From positions 3,299,658-3,363,657 of the forward strand of contig NZ_CP028897.1 in assembly GCF_003072645.1 (NCBI RefSeq): DNA of 64,000 bases. Reading direction: 5' to 3'. Position numbers and translations under genes: made by a program. The DNA is from Dongshaea marina (GTDB lineage Bacteria; Pseudomonadota; Gammaproteobacteria; Enterobacterales; Aeromonadaceae). Numbering within the stretch: position 1 is the first letter of the stretch; each line of letters opens with the position of its first letter. Shown here one piece after another: positions 19,999-55,902 of this stretch. The notes below the pieces were generated by a model, which searched no databases, was not told the origin of the DNA, and saw only the letters and a program-made list of their open reading frames with translations.

Positions 19999-20442
19999 GT
20001 CGGGAGGCGCCCGACAGCGCCCTACTTTTGTATCGCCAAAAGTAGGCAAAATCTCGCTCAGCACTACGAGTCCCTCCGTAGAGCTTCGCAGCTCGGCGTC
20101 CTGCCTCTAACACATAAAAAGCCCAAATTACCTCAGTAGCTGAATCGAAGAAAGGAAGTTATGCCCCTCGTGAGCGAGATCCGGGGCGCCCCGGGAGATG
20201 CTCGTCGCTAACAACATCCATGTTTATCGCGGCATTCACACCTCCCTGTGTATCAGAAGTGCGGGCATCTTTGCCATATAGGGATATATTAATGCCGTGG
20301 AAGACAGGGCGTAGTTGCATAGCAACGTAGCGAGAGGCAGGATGCCGAACTGGGGAGGGCTTTCAGGATGATAGCCGCCTGAGAACGGCCTTGCCTGCTG
20401 CCGGTCAGCACCGGCATCTGCAGCATAGCTGCAAATCAGCCA
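19999..20442. repeat. Dispersed repeat, modules A1 (19999-20178) and B1 (20207-20442)
   Basis: Module A1 matches A2 over 180 bp with few differences; module B1 matches B2 over about 234 bp. A1 contains, read on the minus strand, the three-hairpin element: CTACG-GAGGGACT-CGTAG (20064-20081), CCTACTTTTG-n6-CAAAAGTAGG (20021-20046) and GTCGGG-n5-CCCGAC (from 19999). B1 carries TTGCATAGCAACG and GAGAGGCAGGATGCCGAAC. I find no coding frame that stands out. Confidence 0.75.
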
Positions 20443-44082: not shown

Positions 44083-44691
44083 TCAGCTCCAGCCCGGCAC
44101 ACCCAGAGCACTCAGTAATACCTCGATAGACAGAGCCGCCAGAATCATCCCCATCACCCGAATAAGGATTGCTGCACCATTTTGCCCTATGACTTTGAGA
44201 ATCGGCGCGGCCGCCAGCATCAACAAAAAGGTGATGGCCAGCACCCCAAGCAGGATCAGGGTGGTTCCCGCCTGAACCGGGATCGAATAAAGGTGATTAT
44301 CGGTCAATACAATCACCGCCATGATTGCTCCGGGACTGGCGATTGAGGGGACCGCCAGCGGAAATACCGCCAGATCATGATCCGTCTCAGTCTGCTCCTT
44401 CTTGCCCCCCGGGTTGCCAAAGATCATCTGCAACCCAAACAGAAAGAGGATGATGCCACCGGCGACCTGGAGGGATATCAGCTTCACCCCCATGGCGGTC
44501 AGCAGCACCTGACCGATCACCACGGCTCCCACCAAAATGATCGCTGAGTAGCAGATCGCCTTAAAGGCGATCCGCCGCTGCTGACGGCCGGAGAGTCCGG
44601 CGGTCAGGCCGGCAAAAATTGAGAGGGTCCCCACGGGATCTATGGTCGCCAGTAGCATGATCCCATCCCGGATAAACTTCTCGGCTAACAT
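44083..44691 (-). CDS. MarC-family (UPF0056) inner membrane protein
   Basis: 202 residues with six hydrophobic helices. The ATIDPVGTLSIFAGLT first segment and FPLAVPSIASPGAI are MarC-family hallmarks. The transported substrate is unknown; marC itself was once but is no longer tied to antibiotic resistance. 22 bp downstream of the YaeR-like gene on the same strand. Confidence 0.88.
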   Translation of the reverse strand: MLAEKFIRDGIMLLATIDPVGTLSIFAGLTAGLSGRQQRRIAFKAICYSAIILVGAVVIGQVLLTAMGVKLISLQVAGGIILFLFGLQMIFGNPGGKKEQTETDHDLAVFPLAVPSIASPGAIMAVIVLTDNHLYSIPVQAGTTLILLGVLAITFLLMLAAAPILKVIGQNGAAILIRVMGMILAALSIEVLLSALGVPGWS

Positions 44692-48448: not shown

Positions 48449-49051
48449 TTACTTCTGAAGCTGAGCTAGCAGCTGCTCCAGTACATCCTTAGTAAAGCGC
48501 TGCATCGCCTGCTCATGATAGATCTCACTGGTCGAATAGATGAGCTGCTTGAGATGCTCCTTGGTATCCTCAATCGCCTTCATATCCCGATAACAGCGCA
48601 GCGCGGTATAGATGGAGACAATCAACCTTTCCGCAGTCAGCTCAGATTTTTGCTTGTAGTCATTGATATCGTAGTGGATCACTGTATCCACCTCGGGGGT
48701 GATCCCGGGCTGACCGGTACGCAGTATGATCCGGGTTAATCTGTTATTGAGATCTTCACGGGTATATCGGGCAACCTCCAGCCCCTCATGTTCGGTTTCC
48801 ATCACCACATCCAACAAGATTAAGGCGATGTCGGAGTGTTGCCTGAGAAGCTCACGGGCCTCTTGTCCAGAGTTTGCCTCTAACAGCTCAAGCCCCTTAC
48901 CGAAAAACACCTTATTTTTAATCACCATCCGGGTAAGGTGGTGAATATCAACCTCATCATCGACCACCAGGATCTTCCAGCGCTCATCAGTATCGCTCTG
49001 GGCAGAGCTATCACTCATCTTGTCAGTGGGTGAGATATCATCATCGACCAT
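48449..49051 (-). CDS. Response regulator receiver protein, DUF3369-linked type, short
   Basis: 200 residues. Receiver domain about 26-150 with VVDDE (acidic pair), phospho-acceptor D81 (LILLDVVMETE), Thr in LRTGQPG and Lys in YKQKSEL. The downstream helix (SIYTALRCYRDMKAIEDTKEHLKQLIYSTSEIY) matches the start of DUF3369, which in larger proteins continues into output domains such as HD-GYP or GGDEF. Here the protein stops shortly after, so it may be a stand-alone regulator acting through protein contacts. No kinase gene is adjacent. Confidence 0.85.
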   Translation of the reverse strand: MVDDDISPTDKMSDSSAQSDTDERWKILVVDDEVDIHHLTRMVIKNKVFFGKGLELLEANSGQEARELLRQHSDIALILLDVVMETEHEGLEVARYTREDLNNRLTRIILRTGQPGITPEVDTVIHYDINDYKQKSELTAERLIVSIYTALRCYRDMKAIEDTKEHLKQLIYSTSEIYHEQAMQRFTKDVLEQLLAQLQK

Positions 49052-49556
49052 GGCTGTGACTCTTGGCTGAATTCAACTATAAGCATAGATGAACTCATCA
49101 TAATTGCAGCTCTGCCCGATATGCCGGTGCTGACTGGCAGCCGCTAAAGTTCCCAGCTGCAACTCTTTCTATCCTGCGGATGGCTCTTCTATCTGTGGCC
49201 AGGCCACGGAAATGTCGGGATGTGATGAGAGTATGGATGCTCGAATGCCGCGGTAGCCAGGGAGGGCGTTAGCTGCCGACAGCACATTACTTTTGTATCG
49301 TCAAAAGTAATCAAAGTCTCAAAAATGATAAGGAGGAGGCCTGGTTCAAATTCCGCTGAAATGCAACGGACACTGGGCTGGCGATTTCTTAGAGGAGATA
49401 ACTGACTCAATTCATCGCATAACAGATGAATTTTTATCCCCTGCTGTGATGCCTGGTCATCTCGCGATAATAACAAAGATACAGTTAAGAAGAAGGATCA
49501 CCAGGGGAGTCAATCCTAACTGGGAGAAAACTTCTACCATTCTCAAGTATCAGGGG
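49052..49556. other. Intergenic region with a repeat fragment
   Basis: About 500 bp. A fragment of the dispersed repeat lies at 49262-49325; hairpin 2 is ATTACTTTTG (49286-49295), loop TATCGT, CAAAAGTAAT (49302-49311). A 95-codon minus-strand frame over 49189-49476 is a repeat shadow. Nothing else is recognised. Confidence 0.5.
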
Positions 49557-49640
49557 TTAGTACCCGAGTATAAAATAGAGGGTAAATACAGCGACAATGA
49601 CAGCTAGGCTTATCATCATGATCATATCGGTTACGAGCAT
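49557..49640 (-). CDS. Predicted 27-aa single-helix membrane peptide
   Basis: ATG at 49640 is preceded at 6 bases by GGAGGTGA, a near-perfect complement to the 16S rRNA tail. The frame encodes LVTDMIMMISLAVIVAVFTL and ends LYFILGY, essentially one membrane helix with an acidic N-terminus. The strong ribosome site and uniform hydrophobicity support a real small membrane protein. No large partner gene is next to it. Confidence 0.55.
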   Translation of the reverse strand: MLVTDMIMMISLAVIVAVFTLYFILGY

Positions 49641-49881
49641 AAATCACCTCCAAATCAGACATTGTTTCAACGGCAAACAAGTACCTCTGATGCTACTCTC
49701 TGCAATTTGATAACGCTCAACAACATCATGAGTTTGCAGTGGAATACAGGTGCTACTACACTCTCACCCTACATTCAACTGTCTAATTATGCAATTAAAC
49801 AGCATATTAAGCCACCGATAGTTGACATATTTCCCTCCGGATGTTTCGAGAGTGTTAACTGAGCACCGACAAACTTGTAAC

Positions 49882-50484
49882 TCAGCTTGCCTTGATGAGC
49901 CCAAACAGGGCCTCTGCCAGCTGACTATGGCTCAGTGGGTCGAGATGAACACCATCCTCTGCATAGCCGGTGCATATTATGGCCGCATCCAAATACAATC
50001 CTTGATAACGCTCGGCCAGCTCACGATAACCCTGACGCAGTGCGGGTAGTTTTTCCGGTGCAGCACTAAAGCCTGCCTGTAGCGCAAAATCTAAAATCCT
50101 GGGGGGAGAAACCAGGATGATCTGAGGAAACGGAACCACTGTTTGCTGAATACAGCGAATGAGGGACTCCATACTATTGACGATATCGCTGGCACTGCGC
50201 CCCAAGTGATCGCTTAAATCATTGGTGCCAAGCATCAGGATCACCTTGTCCAATAAGCCGTGTTGAGCAAGCACCGCGGGCAAGGTATCATATCCATTAA
50301 GCCCCGGCATCCCTGGCTCTTCGACCCCGGTGTTTCGGCCATTAAGCCCCTCTTCAATCACCTGGTAATCCTCACCCAGTTTCTGCCCCAGCAGACCGGG
50401 CCAGCGCACGCTTTCAGCAAAGCGACTTCCACCGGTGATATATCCCCAAACATTAGAATCACCGTAACAAAGAATTTTTTTCAT
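49882..50484 (-). CDS. SGNH/GDSL-family hydrolase
   Basis: 200 residues. Block I CYGDSNVWGY holds the nucleophile Ser at residue 10; LNGRNTG supplies the block II Gly; LGTNDLSD is block III; DGVHLDPLSH holds the Asp and His. No signal peptide, so a cytosolic esterase or lipase-like enzyme. It resembles arylesterase/acetylhydrolase members. Substrate unknown. Confidence 0.88.
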   Translation of the reverse strand: MKKILCYGDSNVWGYITGGSRFAESVRWPGLLGQKLGEDYQVIEEGLNGRNTGVEEPGMPGLNGYDTLPAVLAQHGLLDKVILMLGTNDLSDHLGRSASDIVNSMESLIRCIQQTVVPFPQIILVSPPRILDFALQAGFSAAPEKLPALRQGYRELAERYQGLYLDAAIICTGYAEDGVHLDPLSHSQLAEALFGLIKAS

Positions 50485-50845: not shown

Positions 50846-51514
50846 ATGAAGTGTTGGGCGAAAAACGTATCTCCCTGCTGTAATACGCAGTCTAGTGAGC
50901 ACTATATATCAAAGGGGCTTTTCAGCGATAAGATGCTTTACGTTGAAAGTGCACCTTTCCTTGGTGGAACTAGCAAAGAGATTGCTAAGGCATCTCTCAC
51001 AAGAAACTGCCTTTGTAAAAGGCACAATGAAAGACTTTCCATATATGATGATGAAGCAATTCATTATGGTGAATCTCTTAAATATTGTTTAGAGCTCTCA
51101 CTGAAGAGAAAAAATTCAAATGCAAGAAAATTCAGTTTACATTCCAGAATCATCAATTGTGATCGCCTCAATCGTTGGATAATAAAAACCTACTTGGGAT
51201 TAGCTGAGTTCTTCAAATATGAATCGGCAATAGACAAAGGAGAATTGGCGAAGCTAGTATATTCAGACACTTCGATTAAGCACTATCTTCATCTAGAAAC
51301 AACAATGGAAATACAAGAAGACTTCCAAATAAAGGAGTCTGTATCTATCGCGCCACTAGAAAAAAATGAGAGGACGATCGGAATACAAGTTGAACTATAC
51401 GGCATTCGGCTTAATGGAATATTCTCAGATAAACCAGAATATATTCAGAGCCCTATAAGAGTAAAGTTTAATGAGCATAAACAAGGTCCATCCTGCGTGG
51501 TGAAGTTCAAATGA
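50846..51514 (+). CDS. HNH-endonuclease-like hypothetical protein
   Basis: 222 residues in AT-rich DNA. The N-terminal 70 residues look like a zinc-bound HNH-type fold: CC near residue 10, SEHYISKGLF, then NCLCKRHNERLSIYDDEA, matching the C-x-H-N pattern seen in HNH_5-like proteins. The remainder is helical then beta-rich with no family I know. The composition points to recent transfer. It might be a defence or mobile-element nuclease, but that is inference. Confidence 0.5.
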   Translation: MKCWAKNVSPCCNTQSSEHYISKGLFSDKMLYVESAPFLGGTSKEIAKASLTRNCLCKRHNERLSIYDDEAIHYGESLKYCLELSLKRKNSNARKFSLHSRIINCDRLNRWIIKTYLGLAEFFKYESAIDKGELAKLVYSDTSIKHYLHLETTMEIQEDFQIKESVSIAPLEKNERTIGIQVELYGIRLNGIFSDKPEYIQSPIRVKFNEHKQGPSCVVKFK

Positions 51515-52006
51515 ATTTTTATAATCCTGCAATGGTTCCACTGACCTGTCATTTAAATTTCAGGCAGAATTACGTACAAGGCTTTCAGGCTGATTTTCCT
51601 GTATTATGTACTAGAAAGGATTGAGTATGAGTGAAATCAAACCAGAATTAATTGCCATAAATCATGATGAGTATTATGCAAAACATATCGGTGTTACTCC
51701 AGATGGCCTTCAATTTTTTCTAACAAACCCATTCGAGCCAGATTCACAAGGAAAAAAAGGTTGCGAATATATAGCACTATTCAAGTTTGATGAAAAAGGA
51801 AACCTTGTCGATTCTGAAATTGAAGCGTTAGGTCCAAGGGGATTTTTTTCTGATGATGATGCAAGGGAGAAGTATTATTCAAGGCTTGAGAGTCTTGGTA
51901 ACGTAAATTATCAAAGAATTGAAGTTAAGCCTTTTTGTGTAAAGTACAATGATACAAACTTCGGATTAATTGCTCGGGAGCCAGAATACGCAGGTGATAT
52001 TTGGGC

Positions 52007-53047
52007 GGCGTTGTTTCCTAAATCGATGGAACCTTTTGGTTTGAGCAAGATCTGATCTCCCATCGTCATGATGGGAAGCTTCAAATGGGTAAATCCAACG
52101 GCAAAATCAAGAACTGGTCTCAATACAATAAAGCATTGGTAAAGCGTGGCTCGATCACCTTCTGGTTGGATGAGAATGCAGTCAAAAACTGGCATTGTCA
52201 GGAGCACCATGGCGACAGAGGAAGAGGCTTCACGTTCAGTGATACCGCTATCGAAACCGCGTTGATGCTCAAAGGAGTATTCAGCCTTCCACTGAGGGGG
52301 TTGCAAGGATTCCTTGATTCGGTCTTTCAGCTCATGAATGTTCCTCTTAAGTCACCGACTTATAGCTGTATCAGCAAACGAGCGAAGACCGTTGAGATAA
52401 AATATCGCCGCCCCAGCCGAGGCCCTGTTGCTCACGTGGTCGTTGATGGGACAGGGCTCAAAATCCACGGTGAGGGAGAGTGGAAAATGCGCAAGCACGG
52501 AAAAGAAAAGCGCCGAGTTTGGCGCAAGCTCCACCTGGCTGTTGATGCTCAAACTCATGAAATCATAGCAGCCGAGGTCAGCCTTGATAGTGTTGGAGAT
52601 AACGAGGTGTTGCCGACCTTATTAAACCCACTACGACGCAAGATACAGCAAGTCTCAGCAGATGGTGCATACGATACAGAGGCTTGCTATGCACTGTTAC
52701 AGAGAAAGGGTTGTAAACCAACGATTCCTCCCCGCAGTAATGCAGCTTACTGGAAAGGAGATCATCCCAGAAATGAAGCTGTCGAAGCGCTTAAAAATGG
52801 GCAGCTTTCACAATGGAAGCATGACAACGACTACCATCAGCGCTCGTTAGCAGAAACAGCAATGTCTCGCTACAAACAGCTCAATTCTCCACAGCTGAGC
52901 TTACGTTGTTATAACGGTCAGGTTGGGGAAGCCTTGGCCGGAGTTAAAGCTTTAAACAAAGTGATCGGGCTTGGTATGCCTGTCAGGCAGCAAGCTGCCT
53001 GAATGGGTACAAGTCAATTATCAGACTCGGATTTAGGAAACAACGCC
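52007..53047 (+). mobile_element. IS5-family (IS903 group) insertion sequence
   Basis: 1041 bp with perfect 18-bp terminal inverted repeats, GGCGTTGTTTCCTAAATC at 52007-52024 and its complement at 53030-53047. It is flanked by a 9-bp direct repeat TATTTGGGC (51998-52006 and 53048-53056), the duplication size typical of IS903. One transposase gene, intact. Confidence 0.96.
52085..53002 (+). CDS. IS5-family transposase
   Basis: 305 residues. DDE residues read as D121 (VVVDGTG), D193 (SADGAYD) and E257 (LAETAMSRYK). The KIKNWSQYNKALVKRGSITFW start is characteristic of the IS903/IS1031-type group. No frameshift, so the element is potentially active. Confidence 0.95.
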   Translation: MGKSNGKIKNWSQYNKALVKRGSITFWLDENAVKNWHCQEHHGDRGRGFTFSDTAIETALMLKGVFSLPLRGLQGFLDSVFQLMNVPLKSPTYSCISKRAKTVEIKYRRPSRGPVAHVVVDGTGLKIHGEGEWKMRKHGKEKRRVWRKLHLAVDAQTHEIIAAEVSLDSVGDNEVLPTLLNPLRRKIQQVSADGAYDTEACYALLQRKGCKPTIPPRSNAAYWKGDHPRNEAVEALKNGQLSQWKHDNDYHQRSLAETAMSRYKQLNSPQLSLRCYNGQVGEALAGVKALNKVIGLGMPVRQQAA

Positions 53048-53434: not shown

Positions 53435-53644
53435 CTAAAGAATTCGATTATCCTGATACCCCTGCTCCCGCATCTTCTTCTTGCGGGCATCGCAGGGCTC
53501 GGGGCAGTCACACTCCTTCTCGATACCGATCGAACCAAGGCCTCCGCAGGAGCCCTTGATCGTCTTGCGCTGAACTATATATCCGATCGCCATCGCCGCA
53601 AACACCAGGATAAACACCAAAAATGTGATCAAAAAATAGATCAT
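53435..53644 (-). CDS. nqrM: Na+-NQR maturation protein NqrM
   Basis: 69 residues. One N-terminal membrane helix (FLITFLVFILVFAAMAIGYIV) then a Cys cluster (GSCGG, CDCPEPC), as in NqrM/DUF539, which helps deliver the iron held by NqrD and NqrE. Its ATG overlaps the apbE stop (ATGA). Confidence 0.93.
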   Translation of the reverse strand: MIYFLITFLVFILVFAAMAIGYIVQRKTIKGSCGGLGSIGIEKECDCPEPCDARKKKMREQGYQDNRIL

Positions 53645-54675
53645 CCGCGACTCACTATATATTTTTTAAAGGCCTGACTATAAGACTCCCGAACCCCATC
53701 TTTGGTTCGCTCGATCACAAATACCGCCAGGTTATGTTTCTTGGCAAACGCTAGGGTGCGCTTTGCGCCCATCACCATGAAGGCAGTGGCATAACCATCG
53801 GCATCCATGCAGGAGGGGGTCACCACACTCACCGAGAGGATCTTGTTGACCTCGGGCTTGCCGGTCAGAGGATTGATCTCGTGGGCAAAGGTCTTACCAT
53901 CAAGCTTGTAGAAGTTACGATAGTCTCCGGAGGTGGCGATGGCATTGTCACCTATCTGAAGCACCTCCTGAACCGTCCCCCAGCGTTTGGCCGGCTTCTC
54001 AATCGCTACCCGCCACTTGGTGCCCTTGCCATTGACCCCGTTGGCCCGAACCTCGCCACCGATATCCACCAAATAGTTATCGATTCCGAGGGACTCGATA
54101 TAATCGGCCACCTTATCCACCCCAAACCCCTTGGCGATCGCCGAGAGATCCACATACAAACCCGGGATATCCTTTTGCAGGTACTGGCCCTCCACACTGG
54201 TGGTCACATGCAAAAAGCCCAGCCCGACCCGCTTGCGGGTTCGCTCAATTAAAGCCTCCGATGGAACCTGGGTTGGCCGCTTATCCGGACCAAAGCCCCA
54301 CAGGTTTACCAGCGGGCCGACCGTCACATCCAGCGCTCCCCGGGTCATCCGTCCGATCTGGATCGCCCGGGTCACCACCCTGGCGGTATCTACGGAGACC
54401 GCAAATGGCTTGGTCTGTTTCGATGAATTAAAACGCGATAGCTCGGAGTCCGGAATGAAGGTCGACATCTGCTGATTAACCTCATCCAGCAGTGCATCCA
54501 CCTTTGCCTTAAACTTATCCGGATCCTTGATCCCATCTCCGGTTACCTTAATCGAATAGAAGGTCCCCATGGTCTGGCCACTGATGGCGATCTCTTTTTT
54601 GGCCTGTCCCTGACAGGCCGTCAACAAAATGGCCAGCCCGCTAAGGGCCAGCCATCGAATTACCACAGACACCAT
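53641..54675 (-). CDS. apbE: FAD:protein FMN transferase ApbE
   Basis: 344 residues. Lipoprotein signal with LLTAC near residue 20, so anchored outside the inner membrane. It attaches FMN through phosphoester bonds to threonines of NqrB and NqrC. DIGGEVRANG and TSGDYRNFY with the following HEINPLTGKP are the FAD and metal motifs. Lies between nqrF and nqrM, as in Vibrio. Confidence 0.95.
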   Translation of the reverse strand: MVSVVIRWLALSGLAILLTACQGQAKKEIAISGQTMGTFYSIKVTGDGIKDPDKFKAKVDALLDEVNQQMSTFIPDSELSRFNSSKQTKPFAVSVDTARVVTRAIQIGRMTRGALDVTVGPLVNLWGFGPDKRPTQVPSEALIERTRKRVGLGFLHVTTSVEGQYLQKDIPGLYVDLSAIAKGFGVDKVADYIESLGIDNYLVDIGGEVRANGVNGKGTKWRVAIEKPAKRWGTVQEVLQIGDNAIATSGDYRNFYKLDGKTFAHEINPLTGKPEVNKILSVSVVTPSCMDADGYATAFMVMGAKRTLAFAKKHNLAVFVIERTKDGVRESYSQAFKKYIVSRG

Positions 54676-54679
54676 TTAT

Positions 54680-55902
54680 TTAACCACCAAAATCATCCAA
54701 CAGGATATTGTCTTCCTCGACTCCGAGATCCTTGAGCATCCGGATCACCGCGGCGTTCATCACCGGAGGACCACACATATAGTACTCACAATCCTCGGGG
54801 CCTCGTGATCCTTGAGATACTGTTCATAGAGCACGTTATGGATGAAGCCGGTATAACCATCCCAGTTATCCTCAGGCTGGGGATCCGAAAGGGCCACATG
54901 CCACTCAAAGTTTTCACACTCCTCGGCCAGCTTGTCGAAGTCCTCCACATAGAACATCTCACGCTTGGAGCGGGCACCATACCAGAAGGTGATCTTACGC
55001 TTACTCGCAAGGCGTTTGAGCTGATCGAAGATGTGCGAGCGCATCGGCGCCATCCCGGCACCCCCGCCGATAAATACCATCTCGGCATCTGTCTCTTTGG
55101 CAAAGAACTCGCCAAAAGGCCCGGAGATGGTGACCTGATCGCCCGGCTTGAGGCTCCAGATGTAGGAGGACATCAGTCCCGGTGGGATCTTGGGATGATT
55201 AGGCGGCGGTGTAGCGATCCGCACGTTGAGCATGATCACCCCCTCCTCGTCGGGATAGTTTGCCATTGAGTAGGCTCGCACCACATGCTCATCCACCTTG
55301 GACTCGAGATCGAAGAACTTAAAATGCTCCCAGTCGCCACGATACTCACCGGGCACATCAAAGTCGGCAAACTTCACATGGTGCGGGTCTGCCTCGATCT
55401 GGATGTAACCCCCGGCCCTGAAGGGCACCGATTCACCATCGGGGATCTTCAGCACCAGCTCTTTGATGAAGGTAGCCACATTGTCATTGGATACCACCTC
55501 ACACTGCCATTTACGAATGCCGAAGATCTCTTCGGGCAGCTCGATCTCCATGTCATGCTTCACATTGACCTGACAGGCCAGGCGGGTACCGCTACGGGCA
55601 TCGCGCTTACTGATATGATCCAGCTCGGTGGGCAGGATATCTCCGCCCCCGGACTTGACCACCACCCGGCACTGGCCACAGGAGCCACCGCCACCGCAAG
55701 CCGATGAGATAAAGATCTCGTTGGCAGCTAGGGCACCCAACAGCTTACCTCCGGCCTGGGCGGTCGTTGATTTCTCGGGATCGCCATTGATGCTCAGGGT
55801 TACATCCCCCTCGGCCACCAGCCGGGACTTGGCCAGCAGGATCACTGCCACCAAAATCAGCACAATCACGATAAACATGACGACGCCTAAAATTATTTCC
55901 AT
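54680..55902 (-). CDS. nqrF: Na+-translocating NADH:quinone reductase subunit F (3' frameshift as given)
   Basis: NADH-oxidising subunit with an N-terminal membrane helix, a 2Fe-2S domain ([12 protein letters not shown] with a later LACQV Cys), an FAD domain (RAYSMANYP) and an NADH domain ([14 protein letters not shown]). As given the frame ends early after KDHEAP. One more base in the G4 run (plus strand, 54797-54800) gives [20 protein letters not shown], ending DDFGG at 54680, the standard C-terminus, for about 408 residues. Confidence 0.94.

Follow-up and report, generated by a model that had tools for sequence, protein, structure and literature searches.

The open frame considered here lies within the window, by which we mean the whole stretch of 64,000 nucleotides of Dongshaea marina DNA that was analysed, in a gap of the long-ORF map between a GDSL-type hydrolase gene and a response-regulator gene. 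The features of the locus, with positions counted from the first base of the window, are the following.

44083-44691: gene for a NAAT-family transporter
48449-49051, minus strand: response-regulator gene of 200 codons, with DUF3369 matched over the first 52 of its 168 positions only
49052-49881: gap of 830 bases that holds the 27-residue frame (long-ORF map)
49457-49540, minus strand: second hydrophobic frame of 27 residues, MVEVFSQLGLTPLVILLLNCIFVIIAR, hydropathy 2.64 (sequence and hydropathy)
49557-49640, minus strand: open frame of 27 residues from an ATG, MLVTDMIMMISLAVIVAVFTLYFILGY, predicted as one hydrophobic helix (translation and 19-residue hydropathy)
49644-49651, minus strand: Shine-Dalgarno-like GGAGGTGA, with its GGAGG core 6 bases from the ATG (sequence and Shine-Dalgarno scan)
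49787-49828, minus strand: mini-frame of 13 residues, MSTIGGLICCLIA, behind GGAGGGA and upstream of the 27-residue frame (sequence)
49882-50484, minus strand: GDSL-type hydrolase gene (PF13472, E 3.5e-16)
54760-55902, minus strand: nqrF gene of the sodium-pumping NADH reductase (profile match over positions 1-368 of 405)

A preliminary description of this DNA had placed a membrane peptide of 27 residues at 49557-49640, and this is borne out by the frame on the minus strand, which runs from ATG to TAA and translates as MLVTDMIMMISLAVIVAVFTLYFILGY; the plus-strand reading of the same positions is not this frame. The Shine-Dalgarno sequence, described as lying 6 bases before the ATG, is correctly placed if the distance is taken from the GGAGG core, the upstream bases being TTTGGAGGTGATTTATG, while the full GGAGGTGA ends 3 bases from the ATG; the sequence preceding the frame is GGAGGTGATTTATG. 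The portrayal of the product as almost a single membrane helix also fits, as the best 19-residue Kyte-Doolittle mean is 2.75, and the translation contains no lysine, arginine or histidine. Thymine accounts for 30 of the 84 bases, and the GC content is 39% at the frame against 51% in a sample of the genome.

The rarity of this arrangement was judged from a sample made up of the window and 40 stretches of this genome, each 20 kb long, 864 kb in total. The intergenic part, defined as the 149,705 bases outside ORFs of at least 100 codons, contains 1152 ATG starts that open 20-50 residues, with nested starts counted apart, or 957 distinct frames. A Shine-Dalgarno match of at least 8 bases precedes 3 of the 1152 starts, and a 19-residue hydropathy of at least 2.3 is reached from 9 of them, representing 7 distinct frames of which two are in this gap; both traits are combined only in the frame described here. 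If the traits were independent, 3 x 9/1152 = 0.02 such cases would be expected in the sample and about 0.14 per genome by length, an estimate that is our own arithmetic, with counts that include the frame itself and a comparison made post hoc. A first simulation yielded no frame with both traits and has little power, having produced about 18 frames with an 8-base match and 429 with a match of at least 6 bases. The observation of a frame with its Shine-Dalgarno sequence is confirmed, and it is better than chance.

The length of the match is a separate matter. A match of 8 bases is no rarer before intergenic frames (3/1152) than before long open frames (1/313), so that this match length alone is no marker of a gene, and for the same reason a strong Shine-Dalgarno sequence before a hydrophobic frame, convincing as it looks, is insufficient to call one. 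Matches of at least 6 bases offer the more telling contrast: they precede 33 of 313 long frames and 20 of 1152 intergenic ones, the long-frame counts taking the best of the early ATGs, which favours long frames. Three control motifs reached 6 bases or more before 11, 5 and 3 of the 1152 starts, and the Shine-Dalgarno sequence is enriched over these.

The gap contains more than this one frame. The second hydrophobic frame opens 16 bases past the stop of the first, in another reading frame, and no Shine-Dalgarno match of at least 4 bases was found before it at a spacing of 4-10 bases. When 6000 gaps were simulated at matching dinucleotide content, a single strongly hydrophobic frame turned up in 90 of them and two in none; this count is likewise post hoc. 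Two hydrophobic frames in one gap speak for small peptides encoded in tandem or for what is left of a membrane protein. A scan of the gap's minus strand gave neither a sigma-70-like promoter pattern nor a terminator pattern. The plus strand has one promoter-like and one terminator pattern, near shuffle expectation, and the promoter-like site lies inside the 27-residue frame, its count of one being below the shuffle mean of 2.2. The gap also carries a dispersed repeat (49225-49325 in the window) around an inverted CTTTTG...CAAAAG core; blastn returned 30 pieces of it, itself included, in 864 kb of the genome, and further copies lie in the window near 20011, 20517 and 53260.

Stop-to-stop frames of response-regulator homologs, measured in 7 of 80, span 514-536 codons against 200 here, which indicates that the gene in D. 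marina is truncated. These 80 were kept from 188 relatives, and since the top-ranked is 54% identical there is no close relative among them. The uppP/bacA gene lies beyond the response regulator. On the other side, the GDSL hydrolase gave three distant matches, at 28-42% identity, in 60 other genomes. Further along are two ORFs (50846-51514 and 51621-52055) with no Pfam match at E<=0.1, followed by a transposase gene in the window at 52085-53002 on the plus strand (PF13737 and PF01609); the distance between this gene and the 27-residue frame is about 2.5 kb.

It was proposed in the preliminary description that peptides of similar size serve as subunits or regulators of oxidases, pumps and transporters. 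The adjacent genes suggest no partner of these kinds. The nqrF gene and the NAAT-family transporter gene are not adjacent, being about 5 kb from the frame on either side, which is too far to be evidence of partnership. There is no direct support for a subunit or regulator role, and any such role is hypothetical. The nqrF frame itself ends in differing sequence, its C-terminus appearing frameshifted or lost, and an ApbE-like gene follows it at 53641-54675.

Searches among relatives yielded no convincing homolog. The DNA that flanks the frame is not conserved either, a region of 381 bases being matched in none of 60 relatives, 36 from the same family and 24 from the order. With the peptide as query, the 74 other family genomes, all of them from other genera, gave one match at E<=1, which has E 0.7 and lies within a frame of 354 residues. 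Among 394 genomes of the order, 21 other genomes had matches at E<=1, the best being 0.143 in a frame of 662 residues, and 368 other genomes of the class gave no match at E<=0.2. At E<=0.001 nothing outside the own genome was matched in overlapping sets of 61 genomes, 394 of the order, 75 of the family and 369 of the class. The peptide has no second copy in its own genome at E<=10, and Pfam, NCBIfam and PDB sequences were likewise unmatched up to E 10. Nothing was matched at E<=10 among plasmids and phages, where a query of 27 residues has little power, and PHROGs returned just two matches, at E 0.38 and 0.6. Among the papers listed in a literature search on the genus Dongshaea, none dealt with this locus.

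As a positive control for the reach of these searches, the N-terminal 27 residues of the CydX encoded in this genome were run through the same search. Of the 74 other family genomes, 47 matched the control at E<=0.03, for the most part with 44% identity, and 4 more did so at E 0.57-0.76, two of which (G001 and G016) gave matches only within frames of more than 580 codons, probably by chance. Since this control succeeds, a moderately conserved helix of 27 residues would be visible to the search. In 23 of the 74 relatives, which may or may not have CydX, the control had no match at E<=1, so that a fast-evolving peptide could escape. Position offers no further help. Of 61 family genomes, counting this one, 56 gave a match to uppP, and 30 uppP loci (29 of them from other genomes, up to 1.5 kb on either side) held no hydrophobic small frame behind a Shine-Dalgarno sequence except the one described here; the neighbours of uppP in the relatives differ from those here, many being cca-like by eye, and position therefore gives no test of whether the frame is conserved.

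Seven weak matches, six from the 24 non-own places of the order search and one from the family search, were examined closely, and all were rejected as chance; the remainder were judged from the listed frame lengths and E-values alone. One (L003, E 0.44) is preceded by GGAGAGG but sits in a different reading frame of a 559-codon open frame that is glycosidase-like by eye. Two from different species of one genus (L004 and L011, E about 0.6) begin with MLVT and resemble the peptide; their 13th codon is an in-frame TAG, a Shine-Dalgarno sequence is lacking, and they overlap the start of an oppositely directed frame, epimerase-like by eye. Another (L008, E 0.175) comprises 26 residues from a TTG without a Shine-Dalgarno sequence, two (L013 and L025) overlap longer open frames, and the family match (L190) is a portion of the 354-residue frame. 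A degenerate TDMIMMI pattern gave 12 matches in viral contigs; the frames concerned have 11-44 codons and their surroundings are unrelated, and these matches were rejected as well.

Codon usage was compared between genes and open intergenic sequence. The synonymous-codon score of the 27-residue frame is -2.4, which is not coding-like: 92% of 6421 gene windows score higher, and the value is in the mid-range for open intergenic windows. Among genes, 8.0% of the 6421 windows and 2.9% of 35 membrane-like windows score -2.4 or lower; for open intergenic sequence the shares are 41% of 3308 windows and 34% of 136 hydrophobic ones. A version based on the composition of the gap points in the same direction, with 17% of null draws as high and 3% of coding draws as low, and the score of the second frame is low too, at -1.0. 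This evidence comes from 26 codons and is weak, with a likelihood ratio that we estimate at about 3; young or acquired genes score low in codon usage as well.

We tentatively prefer, at a probability of roughly 0.45, to think of an orphan frame within a long intergenic stretch that appears to be decaying, a frame on which ribosomes could initiate, given a transcript, and which has no selected function. A selected function is less likely than none because conservation, codons and setting do not mark a maintained gene, and we counted the dispersed repeat in the gap and the truncated response regulator next to it in favour of an orphan frame. Counted against it were the unique combination of Shine-Dalgarno sequence and helix, the tandem pair and the enrichment of the Shine-Dalgarno sequence over the control motifs. 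If RNA covers the frame, ribosomes would be expected to start at the Shine-Dalgarno sequence and ATG, and the short product would, by analogy with YohP, insert in the membrane as one helix. Excerpts of PMC7549839 describe the 27-residue YohP of Escherichia coli as inserted post-translationally via SRP.

Thymine-rich non-coding DNA would give rise to frames of this sort, an idea taken from the part of PMC7005711 that treats de novo membrane frames in yeast. The frame resembles these in being hydrophobic, in having no detected homologs, in its richness in thymine and in its GC content of 39%, although the model comes from yeast. If made, the peptide could represent a bacterial case of a membrane peptide that has arisen from non-coding DNA.

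A possible alternative, though the odds are against it, is a genuine lineage-restricted small membrane protein, perhaps a member of a tandem pair, that would bind to a larger membrane protein and modulate it, in the way of YohP, MgtS or CydX while being unrelated to them. CydX/YbgT has its role in cytochrome bd oxidase. The intact 27 codons, the strong Shine-Dalgarno sequence before one very hydrophobic helix, the sole such combination in 864 kb, and a hydrophobic frame of the same length just downstream, a pairing absent from the simulated gaps, all argue for a product of this kind, which, if made, would add to the orphan small membrane proteins, perhaps as half of a tandem pair. Set against this are the single family match at E<=1, inside a long frame, the codon usage of both frames, which leans non-coding, the lack of an obvious membrane partner among the adjacent genes, the lack of a promoter pattern on the coding strand, and a second frame without a Shine-Dalgarno sequence.

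CydX/YbgT (PF08173) is likewise a short membrane peptide of a single helix, but the frame has no PF08173 match in Pfam at E up to 10 and is flanked by genes for a GDSL hydrolase and a response regulator. YohP also has 27 residues that form essentially one transmembrane helix, and according to the excerpts of PMC7549839 it is expressed and prone to form dimers; the frame here, a candidate gene, matches neither NCBIfam nor Pfam. Two copies of CydX/YbgT that exceed the Pfam cut-off are present elsewhere in the genome (L203 1501-1608 and L204 near 1495-1641).

It is doubtful that the two frames encode a pair of small membrane peptides confined to the genus and perhaps of recent origin from non-coding DNA, in which the first has the near-perfect ribosome site and the second, equal in length, would be translated by coupling from the first. 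We also regard it as unlikely that the 27-residue frame represents the beginning of a longer membrane protein, now decayed and interrupted by a frameshift, with the second hydrophobic frame as a further piece. The 16-base distance between the frames, their different reading frames and the truncation of the adjoining response-regulator gene are what a remnant would leave, but neither piece has a Pfam match, and while weak matches of the first piece do fall in longer frames (best E 0.14, the 662-residue frame), none has a meaningful E-value. For the second piece no significant relative was found in 147 other genomes of the order, its best match, E 0.0136 among 148 genomes, being at about chance level for so many.

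Least likely is a type I toxin that acts on the membrane and has its translation repressed by an antisense or structured RNA, for although the peptide has fewer than 60 residues and one hydrophobic helix, as membrane type I toxins do in the excerpts of PMC8309996, it has no lysine, arginine or histidine at all, no second genomic copy, no family match in Pfam or NCBIfam and no Rfam antitoxin match (four sub-threshold names, none an antitoxin), the antisense promoter on the plus strand is unconvincing, and RNA structure from 49680 to 49457 is ordinary rather than in excess (z -0.98, with 35 of 200 shuffles as good). In size and hydrophobicity the peptide is like DinQ, ShoB, IbsC and TisB. The same excerpts (PMC8309996) state that membrane type I toxins mostly carry C-terminal positive residues, with IbsC, ShoB and DinQ as exceptions, and these three share the absence of such residues with the frame.

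Two other hydrophobic frames preceded by a Shine-Dalgarno sequence were seen elsewhere in the genome, with 30 and 34 residues (L118 19809-19901 and L142 18078-18182, both on the plus strand). For the 30-residue frame, 4 of the 74 family genomes gave matches at E<=1, the best of which, at E 0.06, is in a frame of 26 residues.
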